In this document: positions 6,528-64,000 of the stretch, piece after piece | Layout of the letters: each line of letters begins with the position of its first letter | How positions within the stretch are numbered: position 1 is the first letter of the stretch | Assembly: GCF_003352835.1 (NCBI RefSeq) | Contig: NZ_QLVD01000010.1 | Location: forward strand, 1 to 64,000 | DNA from: Ornithinimicrobium murale | GTDB taxonomy: Bacteria > Actinomycetota > Actinomycetes > Actinomycetales > Dermatophilaceae | Direction: 5' to 3' | DNA: 64,000 nucleotides | Notes under the pieces: generated by a model | Seen by the model: the letters and a program-made list of their open reading frames with translations, nothing else | Told to the model about the DNA's origin: nothing | Database searches by the model: none | Program-made: the position numbers and the translations under genes

Positions 6528-9073
6528 CGCTGCACCGCGCCGTGGTCTGTGGCAGCTCGGGCAACGGCGGCGTCGCGGGCGGTGTTCACCTCCTCGGTCG
6601 TCAGGGTGCGGTCCGGTGCTCGGAAGAGCAGGTGGAACGCCAGGGACTGCTGGTCCTCCCCGATCTGGTCACCGCGATAGACGTCGAACAGCTGCACCGA
6701 CTCGAGCAGGTCACCAGCACCGGCGCGGACCGACTCCTGCACGTCGCCGAAACTCACGCTGCGGGGGACGGTGAGGGCGATGTCGGACCCGGCTGGCGGG
6801 TGGTTCGACAGCGGCGCCCCCTGCGCACGGCGGTCGCTGGCCGCAATCAGCACGTCCAGGTCCAGCTCGGCGGCGACCGTGCGCTCGGGCACACCCAGGG
6901 CCTTGACGACCTTCGGGTGCAGCTCACCAGCCCAACCGACCGTCGTGCCGTCCGCCAGTGCCAGCTCGACACAACGGCCGGGGTGGAACGGCTCGCGCTC
7001 GGTCTGCAGCCGCTCGACCACGACGCCCACGGCGTCGCAGATCGCGTGCGCCCAGCCGACCATGTCGGTGACGTCGGTGGTCCGGCCCGGGCCCCACCAG
7101 CCGGCCCGTTCGCTGTGCCCGGCAGCCACCAGCGCCACATGCAGCGGCTGGTGCGGCACGGCCGCCCGGATCTCCTCCAGCACCGCGTCGTCCGGCTTGA
7201 CGCCGACCCCCGGCACCGGGGCCTTGCGCGCCAGGTCGGGGTGGGTGACGGTGTCGATCTCGAACAGCGCCACGTCCTTGGCGCCACGGCCCAGGTTGCG
7301 ACGCAGCGCATCCGGCAGCGTCTGGAGCAGTTCGGTGCGCATCAGCGGCGCCTCGTCCGACAACGGGTTGGCCAGCCGCACCGCGTGCCTGCGCTGGTCG
7401 TCGGCGGCCAAGCCCAGGTCGTCGAACCGGGAGTCGCCGACGAACGGGTAGGTGAGCACCTCGTCCAGCCCCTGCCCGGCCAGCGCCGCTGCGACGGTGC
7501 GACGCACCCGCTGGGCGTGCGTGAGGCCACGACCACCCGGCGCGGTCGGGAGCACCGACGGGATCTTGTCGTAGCCGTCGATCCGTGCCACCTCCTCGAC
7601 CAGGTCGGGCCCGGTCAGGAGGTCGGGGCGCCAGGTGGGCGGGGTGACGGTGAGGATGCCGTCGGCGCCGGCGGTGACCGTGCACCCGATCGTCTCGAGC
7701 AGCTCACGCACGCGGTCGACGGTGTAGTCCACCCCCACGTAGCGGGTCGGCATCGACGGGTCGAAGGTGATCGGCTCAGGCTGGCTGACCTGCCCGGCGT
7801 CGGTGACCGCCGGATCGGCGGCGCCACCGCCGAGCTCCACCATGAGCTCGACCATGAGCTGAGCCGCCTGGGGGGCGAGCTCGGGGTCCACGCCGCGCTC
7901 GAAGCGCTTGGACGCCTCGCTGGAGAGCCGGTGCCGGCGGGAGGTGCGGGCCACCGTGCGCGGGTCGAAGTGCGCGGCCTCGATGAGCACGTCGGTCGTG
8001 CTCTCACTCACCTCGCTGGAGGCTCCACCCATGACGCCGGCCAGGCCCAGGACGGTCTCGCCACCGTCGGTGATGAGCAGGTCCTCCGGGTCCAGTGTCC
8101 GCTCGACGTCGTCCAGAGTCGTCAGCTTCTCCCCCGGTCGGGCGCGGCGCACCACGATCGGACCGGTGACCTTGGCCAGGTCGTAGGCGTGCGTGGGCTG
8201 ACCGACGGCGAGCATCACGTAGTTGGAGACGTCGACGGCCAGGCTGATCGGGCGCATCCCGGCCTCGGTGAGGCGGGTCGCCATCCAGGCGGGTGTCTGC
8301 GCCTGCGGGTCGAGGCCGCGCACGATCCGGGTGACGAAGCGGTCGCAGCCCACGGCGCCGTCCAACGGCGCCTCGTCCTGCAGCTCGACAGGGAAGCCGT
8401 CGGGCGTCGCGGCCGGTGCCGTCAGCTCGCGCTCCTGGCCGTCGACCACTCGCACCAGGGCGGGGTCGCGGTAGGCGGCACCGGTGCTGTGGGAGTACTC
8501 CCGGGCAATGCCGCGCAGGCTGAAGCAGTAGCCGCGGTCCGGTGTCACGTTGACCTCGACGGTCTCCCGGTCCAGGCCGAGCAGCGGGATCGCGTCCTGC
8601 CCGGGCTGCAGCCCCTCGGCCCGAGCGCCGAGCCAGTCGGTGAGCACGATGATGCCGTCGTGGTCGGACCCCAGGCCCAGCTCGAGCGAGGAGCAGATCA
8701 TGCCGGCGCTGACGTGGCCGTAGGTCTTGCGCGCCGAGATCTGGAAGTTCCCGGGCAGCACGCCACCGGGCAGGATCACCACCACCAGGTCGCCGGCCGC
8801 GAAGTTGTGCGCGCCGCACACGATGCCCTGCGGCTCGCCGGTGCCATTGGCCGCTCCGACGTCCACCTGGCACCAGTTGATCGTCTTGCCGTTCTTCTGC
8901 TCCTCGGGGGTCATCTCCAGGACGCGGCCGACCACGAGCGGGCCCTGCACGTCCCCGCCGTGCAGGCCCTCCTCCTCCAGGCCGACCCGCACCAGGTCAG
9001 CCGCCACCTGGGTGCCGGTCGTGCCGTCCGGCACCTCGGCATACTCCCTCAGCCAGTCAAGGGGAACCCGCAT
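6524..9073 (-). CDS. pheT: Phenylalanyl-tRNA synthetase beta subunit
   Basis: Beta chain of the alpha2beta2 enzyme that charges tRNA-Phe. The 849-aa sequence has the full bacterial layout: N-terminal EMAP/tRNA-binding fold (about 40-155, 'VVVGRVLEMTPE...WCQVDVG'), B3/B4 editing region (about 215-380), B5 (about 400-480), the inactive synthetase core, and a C-terminal anticodon-binding FDX-ACB domain (about 750-849, ending 'FHLLFRAPDRTLTTEEVN...'). The frame is open another 86 codons upstream inside pheS, but the product starts at MRVPLDWLREY. The ATG at 9073 shares one base with the pheS stop (TGATG), the usual coupling of the pair. Confidence 0.97.
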   Translation of the reverse strand: MRVPLDWLREYAEVPDGTTGTQVAADLVRVGLEEEGLHGGDVQGPLVVGRVLEMTPEEQKNGKTINWCQVDVGAANGTGEPQGIVCGAHNFAAGDLVVVILPGGVLPGNFQISARKTYGHVSAGMICSSLELGLGSDHDGIIVLTDWLGARAEGLQPGQDAIPLLGLDRETVEVNVTPDRGYCFSLRGIAREYSHSTGAAYRDPALVRVVDGQERELTAPAATPDGFPVELQDEAPLDGAVGCDRFVTRIVRGLDPQAQTPAWMATRLTEAGMRPISLAVDVSNYVMLAVGQPTHAYDLAKVTGPIVVRRARPGEKLTTLDDVERTLDPEDLLITDGGETVLGLAGVMGGASSEVSESTTDVLIEAAHFDPRTVARTSRRHRLSSEASKRFERGVDPELAPQAAQLMVELMVELGGGAADPAVTDAGQVSQPEPITFDPSMPTRYVGVDYTVDRVRELLETIGCTVTAGADGILTVTPPTWRPDLLTGPDLVEEVARIDGYDKIPSVLPTAPGGRGLTHAQRVRRTVAAALAGQGLDEVLTYPFVGDSRFDDLGLAADDQRRHAVRLANPLSDEAPLMRTELLQTLPDALRRNLGRGAKDVALFEIDTVTHPDLARKAPVPGVGVKPDDAVLEEIRAAVPHQPLHVALVAAGHSERAGWWGPGRTTDVTDMVGWAHAICDAVGVVVERLQTEREPFHPGRCVELALADGTTVGWAGELHPKVVKALGVPERTVAAELDLDVLIAASDRRAQGAPLSNHPPAGSDIALTVPRSVSFGDVQESVRAGAGDLLESVQLFDVYRGDQIGEDQQSLAFHLLFRAPDRTLTTEEVNTARDAAVARAATDHGAVQR

Positions 9074-56452: not shown

Positions 56453-57703
<1,251 letters not shown>

Positions 57704-57717
57704 GCTTCCGACCGGGC

Positions 57718-57877
57718 GCACGGTGACCCGGACATCTCGGCCACCGGACGCACGGTGACCCGGACATCTCGGCCACCGGACGCACGGTGACCCGGACATC
57801 TCGGCCACCGGACGCACGGTGACCCGGACATCTCGGCCACCGGACGCACGGTGACCCGGGACTCCGGGCCACCGGCC
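57718..57877. repeat. 32-bp tandem array, four perfect copies plus one degenerate
   Basis: Units start at 57718, 57750, 57782 and 57814 and are identical; the fifth (57846) decays. Each unit contains CGGTG-ACC...GGC-CACCG, able to form a small hairpin. It starts 15 bp after the fabF stop, is contiguous with no spacers (so not CRISPR), and leaves about 80 bp to the next gene. It may end transcription or be a minisatellite. Confidence 0.9.
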
Positions 57878-57957
57878 GCATCGTGTGGCGCACGTGGCCC
57901 GGCTCCCGCGGGTTGGTGGCGACCTGACCGCGAAGCCGGGGTAGCGTCTGTCGCGAT

Positions 57958-59094
57958 ATGCATATTCTCCGGGTCGCCAACTTTGTCAGCCCCACCTCGG
58001 GCGGCATCAAGACCGCGCTCCGGCACTGGGGCGAGGCCTATCAGGACCGCGGGCACCGCGTCTCGCTGATCATCCCGGCCTCCTCCAAGGACGAGGCGCC
58101 CGTGACGGAGGAGCCACAGGGCACGGTCTACCGGGTCCCCGCCACGCCGATCCCTGGCAAGGGCTACTCACTGATGTGGGGGCGTGCCCGGCTGAGTGCA
58201 CTGATGGACTCCCTCGACCCGGACTCCCTCGAGGTGTCGGACCGCTCCACGACCCGCTGGATGGGGCGCTGGGCGCGACGCCGCAACATCGGCAGCATCA
58301 TGATCAGCCACGAGAACATGACGGGCATCATGGTCCGCCGCACCCCGGTGCCGGACGTGCCCGCGGTCTGGATGGCCGACTTCATCAACAACCGCAGCGC
58401 CCACGACTACGACGCGATCGTCTGCCCGAGCCGGTTTGCCGCCGAGGAGTTCCGTCGGCTCGGGATCCCGGCCCGGGTCGTCGAACTGGGCGTGGACCTT
58501 GAGGTCTTCCACCCAGACGACTCCCACGAGCGTTTGACGCCCGGTGGCCACAGTCGGGCCGACGATGACACGCTGCACATCATCCACTGTGGGCGGCTGG
58601 CCCCGGAGAAGAACCCGCAGCTATCCATCGAGACCGTCCGGCACCTGGCCCGCCGCGGCATCAGAGCCCACCTGACGGTGCTCGGCCATGGTCCGCTGCG
58701 CAACGAGTTGATCGAGCACTCGCAGGACCTGCCGGTCACCTTCCACTCCTACATCAACGGCCGGGCCGAGCTGGCGGCCGTGATGCGCCGCGCGGACGTC
58801 GCGATCGCGCCGGGACCGCTGGAGACCTTCGGGCTCGCGGCTCTGGAAGCACTGGCCTGCGGGGTGCCGACGGTGTGCCCCGACGAGGGCGCGCTGGCCG
58901 AGGTGGTGCGGGGCGGCGGGATCGCGGTGCCATCGGATCCTGCACGCTTCGCTGATGCGGTGCACGAGCTCAGTGAGCGCCCGAACGCCCGTCGCCTGGC
59001 CCGGGAACAGGCGGAGACGTTCAACTGGGAGCATTCCTCGGACGACATGCTCGAGATCCATGAGGAGCTGGCGGTCCTGCACTCCAGGAGGTGA
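57958..59094 (+). CDS. GT4-family glycosyltransferase
   Basis: 378-aa GT-B-fold enzyme that transfers a sugar from a nucleotide sugar, cytoplasmic or membrane-associated. The N-terminal acceptor domain opens 'MHILRVANFVSPTSGGIKTA' (Gly-Gly loop); the C-terminal donor domain has 'IIHCGRLAPEKNPQLSIETV' (about 200-219) and the E-x7-E motif 'GPLETFGLAALEALACGVP' (about 281-299). Relatives include mannosyltransferases of cell-envelope lipids; donor and acceptor are not certain. No SD; TAGCGT lies 10 nt before the ATG. Confidence 0.88.
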   Translation: MHILRVANFVSPTSGGIKTALRHWGEAYQDRGHRVSLIIPASSKDEAPVTEEPQGTVYRVPATPIPGKGYSLMWGRARLSALMDSLDPDSLEVSDRSTTRWMGRWARRRNIGSIMISHENMTGIMVRRTPVPDVPAVWMADFINNRSAHDYDAIVCPSRFAAEEFRRLGIPARVVELGVDLEVFHPDDSHERLTPGGHSRADDDTLHIIHCGRLAPEKNPQLSIETVRHLARRGIRAHLTVLGHGPLRNELIEHSQDLPVTFHSYINGRAELAAVMRRADVAIAPGPLETFGLAALEALACGVPTVCPDEGALAEVVRGGGIAVPSDPARFADAVHELSERPNARRLAREQAETFNWEHSSDDMLEIHEELAVLHSRR

Positions 59095-62094: not shown

Positions 62095-62775
62095 ATGCTT
62101 GAGTTGATCCAGGAGTTCGAGCTCCTGGCTGCGTTCTGGATGACGATCCGGCTGACCCTGTGGTCCGCGCTGTTCTCCCTGATCATCGGGACCTTCGTGG
62201 CCATCATGCGCCTGTCGCCTGTCAAGGTGCTGCAGTCGATCGGCACGTCCTATGTGAACCTGCTGCGCAACACGCCCCTGACCCTGATCATCGTCGGCAC
62301 CAGTCTGGTCCTGTGGGGTCAACTGGGGCTCGAGCCCGCCTCGCGTGACTCCTCGACCTTCATCGTCGATCTGAACTTCCGCCTCGCAGTGCTGGGCCTG
62401 TCGGTCTATCACGCGGCCTTCGTGTGTGAGGCGATCCGAAGCGGCGTCAATACCATCCCGCTGGGCCAGGCCGAGGCCGCCCGCTCGATCGGACTCACCT
62501 TCGGCCAAAGCCTGCGCCACGTCATCCTCCCCCAAGGCTTCCGCGGAGCGATCACTCCCTTGGGGAACACCCTCATTGCGCTGACCAAGAACACGACCGT
62601 GGCCTCCGCGATCGGCGTGATGGACCCTGCGTACCAGCTCGACAACATTGCTGAGTTCAGACCGGACGTTCTCTTCCTGGGCTTCGCGGTGATCGCCCTC
62701 GGCTTCGTGGTGCTCACGCTGCCCGTCGGGTTGATCATCAGTGCGTTGTCGAGTCGACTGGCGGTGAAGCGATGA
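62095..62775 (+). CDS. gluC: Glutamate-type ABC transporter permease 1
   Basis: 226-aa inner-membrane permease of the HisM/GlnP type with about five helices. 'YVNLLRNTPLTLIIVG' and the EAA-loop 'EAIRSGVNTIPLGQAEAARSIGLTFGQS' region (about 111-140) contact the ATPase. ATG with AAGGAG upstream; overlaps gluD by four bases. Confidence 0.94.
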   Translation: MLELIQEFELLAAFWMTIRLTLWSALFSLIIGTFVAIMRLSPVKVLQSIGTSYVNLLRNTPLTLIIVGTSLVLWGQLGLEPASRDSSTFIVDLNFRLAVLGLSVYHAAFVCEAIRSGVNTIPLGQAEAARSIGLTFGQSLRHVILPQGFRGAITPLGNTLIALTKNTTVASAIGVMDPAYQLDNIAEFRPDVLFLGFAVIALGFVVLTLPVGLIISALSSRLAVKR

Positions 62776-63692
62776 GCGCCCAGCAGGTCCTGTTCGACGC
62801 TCCCGGGCCACGCGCCCGGGCACGGCACCGCATCCTGGCCGTCATCGGAGTGTTGCTGCTGCTGGCAGCCCTCGCCTGGGTGCTCGAGCGATTCAACGCC
62901 ACAGGTCAGCTCGAGGCTGCGAAGTGGACGCCCTTCGTAGAATGGTCGACCTGGCGCAACTATCTGATTCCCGGCGTCATTGATGTGCTCCGCGCCGCGC
63001 TCGTCGCGATCGTCATCTCGATGGTGCTCGCGCTGGGCCTGGCGATGGCCCGCATGTCGGACATGGCCCCCGTGCGCTGGGCGGCAAGCGTGTTCGTGGA
63101 GTTCTTCCGTGCAGTGCCAGTGCTGATCATGATGATCTTCACCTTCTTCTTCCTGGCCTACAACGCCGGCACCCCCGACAGCTGGAACCCATTCCTAGCC
63201 GTCGTGACCGGGCTGGTCCTCTACAACTCCTCGGTGCTGTGTGAGGTGATCCGCAACGGCGTCTACTCGCTGCCAGCCGGACAGCGCGAGGCGGGCCTGT
63301 CCATCGGGCTGTCGCCCTCGCAGGTGCGGCGGAGCATCCAGGTGCCACAGGCCCTGACCGCCATGCTTCCGGTCATCGTCAGCCAGATCGTGGTCATCAC
63401 CAAGGACACGGCACTGGGATACATCATCCTCTACCCCGAACTCATCACCCAGGCTCGTCGCCTGGCCTCGCAGGAGTTCAATGTGGTGCCCGCCTACCTG
63501 GTCGCGGCGGTGCTGTTCATCCTGATCAACTATGGCCTCAGCAAGGTCGCCGAGCGGGTTGAGGCCCGCCAGCGCCGCAAGGCACACACGGCCGGCGCAA
63601 TCGGCAGTGCGGATGCCATCCGTGCCGAGGCACGCGGCGGTCGAGCTCCCGACGACGCTGCCGGTGACGGCGATGACGTCGAAGTGCGCTGA
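62772..63692 (+). CDS. gluD: Glutamate-type ABC transporter permease 2
   Basis: 306-aa permease, partner of GluC. Helices at about 15-35, 65-90, 105-130 and 145-165 and later; EAA loop 'EVIRNGVYSLPAGQREAGLS' (about 158-177). It has a longer hydrophilic C-terminal tail (about 260-306, acidic at the end) than GluC. Start ATG lies in an ATGA overlap with gluC; ends before a terminator hairpin. Confidence 0.93.
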   Translation: MSAQQVLFDAPGPRARARHRILAVIGVLLLLAALAWVLERFNATGQLEAAKWTPFVEWSTWRNYLIPGVIDVLRAALVAIVISMVLALGLAMARMSDMAPVRWAASVFVEFFRAVPVLIMMIFTFFFLAYNAGTPDSWNPFLAVVTGLVLYNSSVLCEVIRNGVYSLPAGQREAGLSIGLSPSQVRRSIQVPQALTAMLPVIVSQIVVITKDTALGYIILYPELITQARRLASQEFNVVPAYLVAAVLFILINYGLSKVAERVEARQRRKAHTAGAIGSADAIRAEARGGRAPDDAAGDGDDVEVR

Positions 63693-63736
63693 CCCATAGT
63701 CAGCCTGGGCACCACGGTGTCGTTGCGGACACGCAG

Positions 63737-63770
63737 AACGGCCCGGAACCATGTGGTTCCGGGCCGTTTC
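63737..63770 (+). terminator. Rho-independent terminator after gluD
   Basis: AACGGCCCGGAACC (63737-63750), loop ATGT, GGTTCCGGGCCGTT (63755-63768) then TC. The 14-bp stem ends in AA/TT, so it can serve both the glu operon and anything arriving from the right, such as the former tRNA. Confidence 0.85.
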
Positions 63771-63776
63771 CGTGCG

Positions 63777-63801
63777 CTCCCCCGGTTGGACTCGAACCAA
63801 C
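63777..63801 (-). other. tRNA 3'-end-like fragment, probable attachment-site half
   Basis: On the minus strand GTTGG-TTCGAGT-CCAAC (63801-63785) is a complete T-arm, followed by CGGGGGA (acceptor 3' strand, 63784-63778) and G. No matching 5' acceptor (TCCCCCG) or D/anticodon arms lie upstream, so it is not a whole tRNA. Its place between a terminator and an integrase start suggests an att junction. Confidence 0.55.
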
Positions 63802-63923
63802 ATGCAGGATTGTTGGACTCGCTTAGACACAACCGGACGTACGTGCCCCTGACCTGCAGAAACATCCACATCGCTGCGGCTCCAACTGCCCGCCGAAGGC
63901 CCATCAAAGGACACTATTTGCCG

Positions 63924-63929
63924 TACGAT
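63924..63929 (+). promoter_or_regulatory. -10 box TACGAT, leaderless start of the integrase-like gene
   Basis: Ends 7 nt before the ATG at 63937 and selects it over the ATG at 63933 in another frame. Confidence 0.5.
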
Positions 63930-63936
63930 CCGATGC

Positions 63937-64000
63937 ATGAACGATGCAAGATCGCCCCGCCGGCGCTTCGGGCAGGTGACGCGGATGCGATCGGGACGCT
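63937..64000 (+). CDS. Probable site-specific integrase, 5' part only
   Basis: Only 21 codons are in the window: MNDARSPRRRFGQVTRMRSGR. The 'RRRFGxVxRMRSGR' pattern is the usual opening of actinobacterial phage/ICE tyrosine-recombinase integrases, whose SAM-like arm-binding domain continues 'WQARY...'. The neighbouring tRNA 3'-end fragment fits such an enzyme's target. Truncated by the window edge, so the family remains a prediction. Confidence 0.6.
   Translation, partial: MNDARSPRRRFGQVTRMRSGR

Follow-up and report, generated by a model that had tools for sequence, protein, structure and literature searches.

In the portion available to us of a 2017 review of canonical integrative mobilizable elements (IMEs), none of the elements known at the time has a MobF relaxase, and a single one was found in Actinobacteria (PMC5704250). 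MobF relaxases are common on actinobacterial plasmids, according to the sections of PMC8190616 that we could draw on. The accessible part of a study of actinobacterial integrative and conjugative elements (ICEs) and actinomycete integrative and conjugative elements (AICEs) describes an integrase and Xis at tRNA 3' ends, together with a TrwC-domain relaxase that was sought there for ICEs of the type IV secretion system (T4SS) type (PMC3218068). In KplE1, the promoter of the integrase gene intS overlaps attL and int is negatively autoregulated, and the available text of the same report gives promoter-attL overlap for 61.5% of tRNA-associated integrase genes (PMC2951348). Here we describe a 64,000-nt stretch of Ornithinimicrobium murale DNA (NZ_QLVD01000010.1, positions 1 to 64,000; hereafter the window), which is the first part of the 286,535-bp contig C30, so that the sequence downstream of it can be read (C30:1-64000 is the window). 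The right edge of the window very probably enters a 24.4-kb integrative mobilizable element inserted in the 3' end of a tRNA-Asn(gtt) gene, as judged from the terminal repeat, the tRNA, the same site in congeners, the gene content, the shared backbone, and paired heptamers in both arms.

The left end of the element occupies 63775-64000 of the window, and its right end is at C30:88207. A 28-nt repeat at 63775-63802 (minus strand) is an exact copy of C30:88180-88207 (minus strand), and the right copy spans the 3' 27 nt of tRNA-Asn, including the T-arm, the acceptor 3' strand, and the discriminator. The initial annotation had recognized a solitary tRNA 3' end at 63777-63801; its extent is slightly wider than this, and ARAGORN lists no full-length tRNA at this edge of the window. 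It also expected an intact minus-strand tRNA to the right and proposed, as a check fixed beforehand, that the contig be extended in that direction to look for a second repeat copy inside such a tRNA. The extension located both. The right repeat lies within an intact tRNA-Asn(gtt) on the minus strand (C30:88181-88254), and the two copies are 24,405 bp apart. The earlier reading of the right edge as an integrated element at a tRNA 3' end is thus supported. In a related element (G156), the left and right repeat copies disagree at positions 1, 24, and 28. If neither copy has mutated since insertion, then the crossover was confined to repeat positions 2-23.

The open reading frame (ORF) that starts at ATG 63937 continues beyond the window as an integrase, as had been anticipated. 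Only its first 64 nt (63937-64000, plus strand) are in the window; it runs to C30:65172 and encodes a 411-aa tyrosine integrase (Pfam Phage_integrase, 4.8e-16 and 59.5 bits against a cut-off of 27.1; SAM-like domain, 1.6e-7), and 134 nt separate its ATG from the repeat. Residues R240, K281, H349, R352, and Y384 are present, and we take these to be the catalytic motif residues. A leaderless promoter had also been proposed for this gene. The end of the candidate -10 hexamer TACGAT (63924-63929, plus strand) is 7 nt upstream of the ATG; six of seven related elements share the hexamer and the seventh has TACGCT, but scans list no sigma-70 type promoter in 63600-64000 or at the right arm. The leaderless promoter is plausible, if weakly supported.

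The same chromosomal site can be followed in other species. We used the permease gene immediately left of the tRNA fragment (62772-63692), presumably gluD from its appearance and its neighbors, to search 31 genomes of the genus, our own included. The best loci from 28 congeners (L012-L039) are 54-68% identical in this gene, and two genomes (G009 and G026) have no close match to it. As fetched with 1.5-kb flanks, 18 of the 28 loci have an intact tRNA-Asn facing gluD and no second repeat copy, and in all 18 the tRNA is followed by p180, which lies to the right of the tRNA here as well (C30:88294-88836). Element-like right-end DNA adjoins the intact tRNA-Asn in four of the 18 (G025, L015; G022, L029; G008, L035; and, weakly, G030, L032), and these look like sites with remnants of lost older insertions rather than clean ones. 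Six of the other 10 loci were read on by 60 kb, and every one has an intact tRNA followed by p180 and dnaG. In G007, G016, G020, and G027, that strand has a single repeat copy at a distance of 1.9-7.3 kb from gluD. G003 and G019 (L065-L070) have two copies, 13.6 and 18.6 kb apart, and the integrase of our element finds no match at 1e-5 in these loci; their tRNA-Asn appears to be occupied by other elements. The remaining four comprise G001 and G014, which hold relatives of our element, and G021 and G028, whose loci are near contig ends. In G021, a right end of our type occurs on another contig.

A search of 186 genomes of the family with the integrase returned six, our own included, at E <= 1e-100. 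The closest relatives are in G001 and G014, where the integrase is 98-99% identical and occupies the same tRNA-Asn, whereas the host proteins beside it are far more diverged (gluD 61-68% and dnaG 61-63% identical). This difference between the backbone and its host neighbors points to recent movement of the element between species. The G001 relative is 20.3 kb long. Its left backbone (C30:63775-71473) is 96% identical to ours in two pieces and its right end (C30:87065-88207) is 88-89% identical, with no blastn match longer than 150 nt between them. In G014, the left backbone is 96% and 91% identical in two pieces and the right end (from C30:87057) is 92% identical and on a second contig; no cargo match to ours occurs in the pieces examined. 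Because the backbone ends match in both relatives with no cargo match between them, a conserved frame, with the integrase, an ORF, and the relaxase on the left and a Doc-like pair and the excisionase on the right, carries exchangeable cargo. The protein scans took in part of the G001 and G014 cargo, including part of the largest G001 cargo ORF. A further right end with a Doc-like pair lies between gluD and attL in G001 (L049), a sign of tandem accretion. More distant integrases, 71-79% identical, occur in G033, G156, G160, and Nocardioides allogilvus, and each is preceded by a near-identical tRNA-Asn 3' end (one to three mismatches). An intact tRNA-Asn at the far end was seen among these four only in G156; the stretches from G033 and N. 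allogilvus are short.

The element also carries a relaxase gene and an excisionase-type gene. A Pfam scan took in 27 element proteins (the major facilitator superfamily (MFS) protein only in part, and small ORFs in part), and four proteins were compared with PHROGs. The relaxase (C30:67215-71216, minus strand) scores 242.5 bits with the NCBIfam MobF model (cut-off 100) and 290 bits with Pfam TrwC. Its TrwC domain (residues 71-452) is combined with helicase domains (AAA_30, 616-808; UvrD_C_2, 933-972), which is the arrangement of the MobF family, and it is 45-52% identical to the proteins in 10 listed plasmid matches, each with a mobF annotation under the match. At the opposite end, an excisionase-type protein (C30:87781-88026, plus strand) matches TIGR01764 with 39.6 bits (cut-off 28.8). 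This small helix-turn-helix protein of the excisionase family lies next to the attachment site, with 153 nt between its stop codon and the right repeat. The scan of the 27 proteins found no coupling protein, VirD4, VirB4, T4SS, FtsK/TraB, or replication initiator family. Elsewhere in the genome, there are four matches of the type IV coupling protein (T4CP) type (TraG-D_C) and one AAA_10 (VirB4-type) match, located on C18, C31, and C33 and none on C30. These T4CP- and VirB4-like genes may be a candidate helper.

The element has the features of an IME that can be checked in the sequence: flanking direct repeats, an integrase and a relaxase of its own, and no mating-pair formation system among the 27 proteins. 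It resembles the canonical IMEs, as far as the available part of the review describes them, in its tyrosine integrase, its tRNA 3' end target, its own relaxase, and the lack of a mating-pair family in the scan; toxin-antitoxin genes and tandem arrangements are mentioned there too. Its MobF relaxase sets it apart from them (PMC5704250). With the actinobacterial ICEs and AICEs, in the portion of that study at hand, it shares an integrase and Xis at a tRNA 3' end and a TrwC-domain relaxase, unlike them in that FtsK/TraB, a replication initiator, VirD4, and VirB4 were not found in its 27 proteins (PMC3218068). An AICE of the FtsK/TraB type was considered and dropped, as no FtsK-type transfer or Rep family occurs in the scanned set. 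The integrase matches the phage integrase family phrog_1, and distant relatives of it occur in 508 phage records, all below 60% identity, as they do in 29 plasmid records, again all below 60%. The phage matches would suit a prophage or a phage satellite instead of a conjugation-type element. We regard this as extremely improbable and dropped it, given that no capsid, portal, terminase, or tail families were found in the 27 proteins; the presence of a MobF relaxase with helicase domains also argues against it.

Several observations weigh against a complete and mobile element. The PemK-like frame is broken in this copy, in two pieces in different frames, and is open in G001, and the backbone ORF of 343 aa ends differently from its G001 homologue. 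No oriT (origin of transfer) was identified; the stretch preceding the relaxase gene (L004:9050-9620) has only weak inverted repeats. The helper is a candidate only, and the genome assembly is 75% complete. The catalytic pattern of tyrosine integrases usually has His or Trp at the position of residue 375. An Asp (D375) is found here in all seven tRNA-Asn integrases, and the tRNA-Val type described below has His; since it is common to the seven relatives, D375 may be a subfamily feature instead of damage. In G160, an intact tRNA was not found within the 60 kb fetched, and the G156 element has no match at 1e-10 to our relaxase or excisionase, from which it appears that this integrase type serves other backbones too. 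Finally, the excised circle and its transfer are predicted from sequence, as are excision itself, integrase binding to the heptamers, autorepression, the oriT, and mobilization by a helper.

A rival reading is a decayed genomic island that has real junctions but no longer moves. Besides the broken PemK-like frame and the altered end of the 343-aa ORF, an IS110 copy in the right part is compatible with decay. Remnants are also common: right-end DNA adjoins the tRNA in four of the 18 congeners with an intact site and occurs left of attL in G001, and the G014 excisionase match is split over two frames. However, the integrase, excisionase, and relaxase frames are all open in our copy, both repeats are exact, and closely similar backbones are present in diverged hosts. 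Loss of mobility is therefore unlikely, and we prefer an element that would still be able to excise and be mobilized.

Further evidence comes from the arms of the element. Apart from the repeat, the conservation that stands out most in seven aligned left arms is the block TACGATCCGATGCATGAACGATGCAA, which lies over the integrase start. Direct heptamers with the arrangement CGATGCA-N4-CGATGCA overlap the int start codon (63931-63948, plus strand) and are candidate arm-type sites for the integrase. A second pair with one mismatch lies in the right arm (C30:88104-88121), 58 nt from the right repeat. The int-side pair is exact in six of the seven elements (our own, G000, and those of G001, G014, G156, G160, and N. 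allogilvus) and has one mismatch in G033. When up to two mismatches are allowed, only two matches to the pair occur in the 36 kb that were read, one per arm. N. allogilvus has other codons after the motif than the remaining elements but keeps the DNA motif itself, a pattern that suggests selection at the DNA level. When the arms are shuffled with a first-order Markov model, none of 1000 shuffles reaches the observed score in each of five elements (G000, G001, and G156; G008 and G021), and a spacing of 4 scores best among spacings of 0-20 in all four elements checked.

There are also reasons for caution about these sites. By chance, 0.20 and 0.15 pairs with at most two mismatches are expected in the two 18-kb pieces, and of 200 shuffles of each piece, 37 and 29 contain at least one pair. 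The five shuffle-tested elements represent only two independent types, the 4-nt spacing had been noticed before the shuffle test, and the opposite-strand control in G000 reaches 24 of 28 at a spacing of 6, compared with 27 observed. Because the pair alone is not rare by chance, the case for arm sites rests on its placement in both arms and on its conservation. With these included, the heptamer pairs are probably integrase arm sites.

Sister elements in the same genus, to which the relaxase search led, have the same arm geometry with a different motif. In G008 and G021, elements are inserted at tRNA-Val(gac), and both repeats (24 and 21 nt) are present at a distance of about 21.2 kb. Their relaxases are 87-89% identical to ours and their excisionases are 92% (G008) and 88% (G021) identical, whereas their integrases are only ~35% identical, their tRNA target is different, and their arms have another heptamer. 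The pair in these elements is TTCCTCG-N4-TTCCTCG, a direct repeat that points the same way in the two arms. It lies 147-149 nt from where the left core starts and 63-65 nt from the right one; the corresponding distances in our type are 157-159 and 76 nt. In our own genome, a tRNA-Val 3' fragment and a TTCCTCG pair precede a second integrase, which is of the tRNA-Val type (L007, C18:408262-409362 and upstream). G026 has the tRNA-Val integrase type with the int-side TTCCTCG pair, and no excisionase was found in its stretch. In G005 and G025, the sequence near tRNA-Val encodes a relaxase (84-85%) as well as an excisionase (85-90%), with no match to our integrase in the stretch fetched.

This comparison also bears on what the heptamers bind. 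They could instead be sites for the excisionase or a host factor, or simply an operator of int, and their overlap with the int start would suit a regulator site as well. We consider this rather improbable, since the heptamer changes together with the integrase and the excisionase remains 88-92% identical (G008 and G021), and an int operator alone would not need a second pair in the other arm. If the heptamers are integrase arm sites, then the integrase, the core, and both arm-site pairs may have been exchanged as a unit, with one excisionase type kept working with both integrases. We hold this exchange to be evenly balanced between right and wrong.

With the heptamers read as arm sites, the following mechanism can be proposed. 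The integrase would bind the arm pairs and the T-arm core and exchange strands within the repeat, so that the tRNA 3' end carried by the element recombines with the chromosomal one. An intact tRNA would be rebuilt at the right junction with its last bases supplied by the element, and the old 3' fragment would stay behind at the left junction. The integrase gene lies next to the tRNA fragment and the excisionase gene next to the intact tRNA, so the excised circle should have the order xis - attP - int. The arm pair on the int side spans the start of int, downstream of the candidate -10; on this basis, and by analogy with KplE1, repression of int by its own product is probable in the integrated state. 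In both systems, as far as the available part of the KplE1 report allows comparison, an integrase promoter region overlaps a recombination site with arm-type sites, the promoter and arm sites being candidates in ours; our int differs in adjoining a tRNA fragment rather than an intact tRNA, in having the excisionase at the opposite end, and in that its autoregulation is predicted (PMC2951348). Transfer would begin with a nick made by the MobF relaxase at an oriT of the circle, and the DNA could then leave through the T4SS of a helper.

Other sequences near the junctions may contribute to integration or expression. The octamer TGTTGGAC (63811-63818, plus strand) resembles the T-stem strand of the repeat and is kept in all seven aligned left arms, making it a possible accessory core-type site. 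On the host side, a hairpin with 15-bp perfect arms and a 2-nt loop lies between gluD and the tRNA fragment (63737-63768) and might act as a terminator. An inverted-repeat search found another hairpin, with a loop of 11, beside the right repeat (C30:88133-88173), which may terminate the transcript of the rebuilt tRNA. Terminator scans list neither of them, as loops of 2 and 11 nt miss the loop limits (3-8 for the scan of 63737-63768). A flank resembling the right hairpin side is also found at some congener tRNAs (L015, L029, and L035).

The rest of the element comprises backbone genes of less defined function and the cargo. Between the integrase and the relaxase are the 343-aa ORF, which has no assigned role (C30:65657-66688, plus strand), and the ribbon-helix-helix/PemK-type pair (C30:66637-67154). 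The variable cargo (C30:71474-87056) includes two TerC proteins, two DUF305 proteins, a DUF326 protein, a cysteine desulfurase, a metallo-beta-lactamase-rhodanese protein, the MFS protein, ArsR-rhodanese, DsrE, glyoxalase-like, and MT0933-type proteins, and IS110. The DUF326 protein weakly matches a Csp1-type copper storage model (31 bits against a cut-off of 100). We infer that the cargo provides metal and sulfur stress genes. A Fic/Doc-type pair (C30:87090-87653, minus strand) lies between the cargo and the excisionase. The stretch around this pair (C30:87065-87684) is, in a separate observation, 86-90% identical over ~600 bp to sequences at other places in nine congeners (G006, G008, G012, G016, G019, G020, G027, G029, and G030).

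Elsewhere in the window, ARAGORN reports a tRNA-His of 100 nt (6967-7066), which is longer than usual. In translations of 57700-57960, a short phrase recurs (SGSPCVRWPRCPGHRASGGRDV and variants of it), which suggests a small tandem repeat. Mainly weak families appear among the best 20-25 entries of the repeat listing.

As a whole, this is a largely ordinary mobile element, and IMEs are a kind already known; the comparison of its probable integrase arm sites is unusually easy to read. By their titles, papers on Ornithinimicrobium genomic islands or integrases include none on this element. No later paper on a MobF-type IME in Actinobacteria was found by title either, which is not proof of absence. 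With its MobF relaxase, the element is an addition to the mobilizable elements of Actinobacteria, and the available part of the 2017 IME review does not list this combination (PMC5704250). What began as a guess at the edge of the window is now an element whose full extent and two junctions are defined, for which 18 congeners provide single-copy reference sites and two close relatives are available. With integrase-specific heptamer pairs in similar positions in two element types, target choice, arm binding, and autorepression can be tested, and this in a genus that is not known to be pathogenic. If the module exchange is true, it would be a natural test of what sets target choice and of what the excisionase must recognize.
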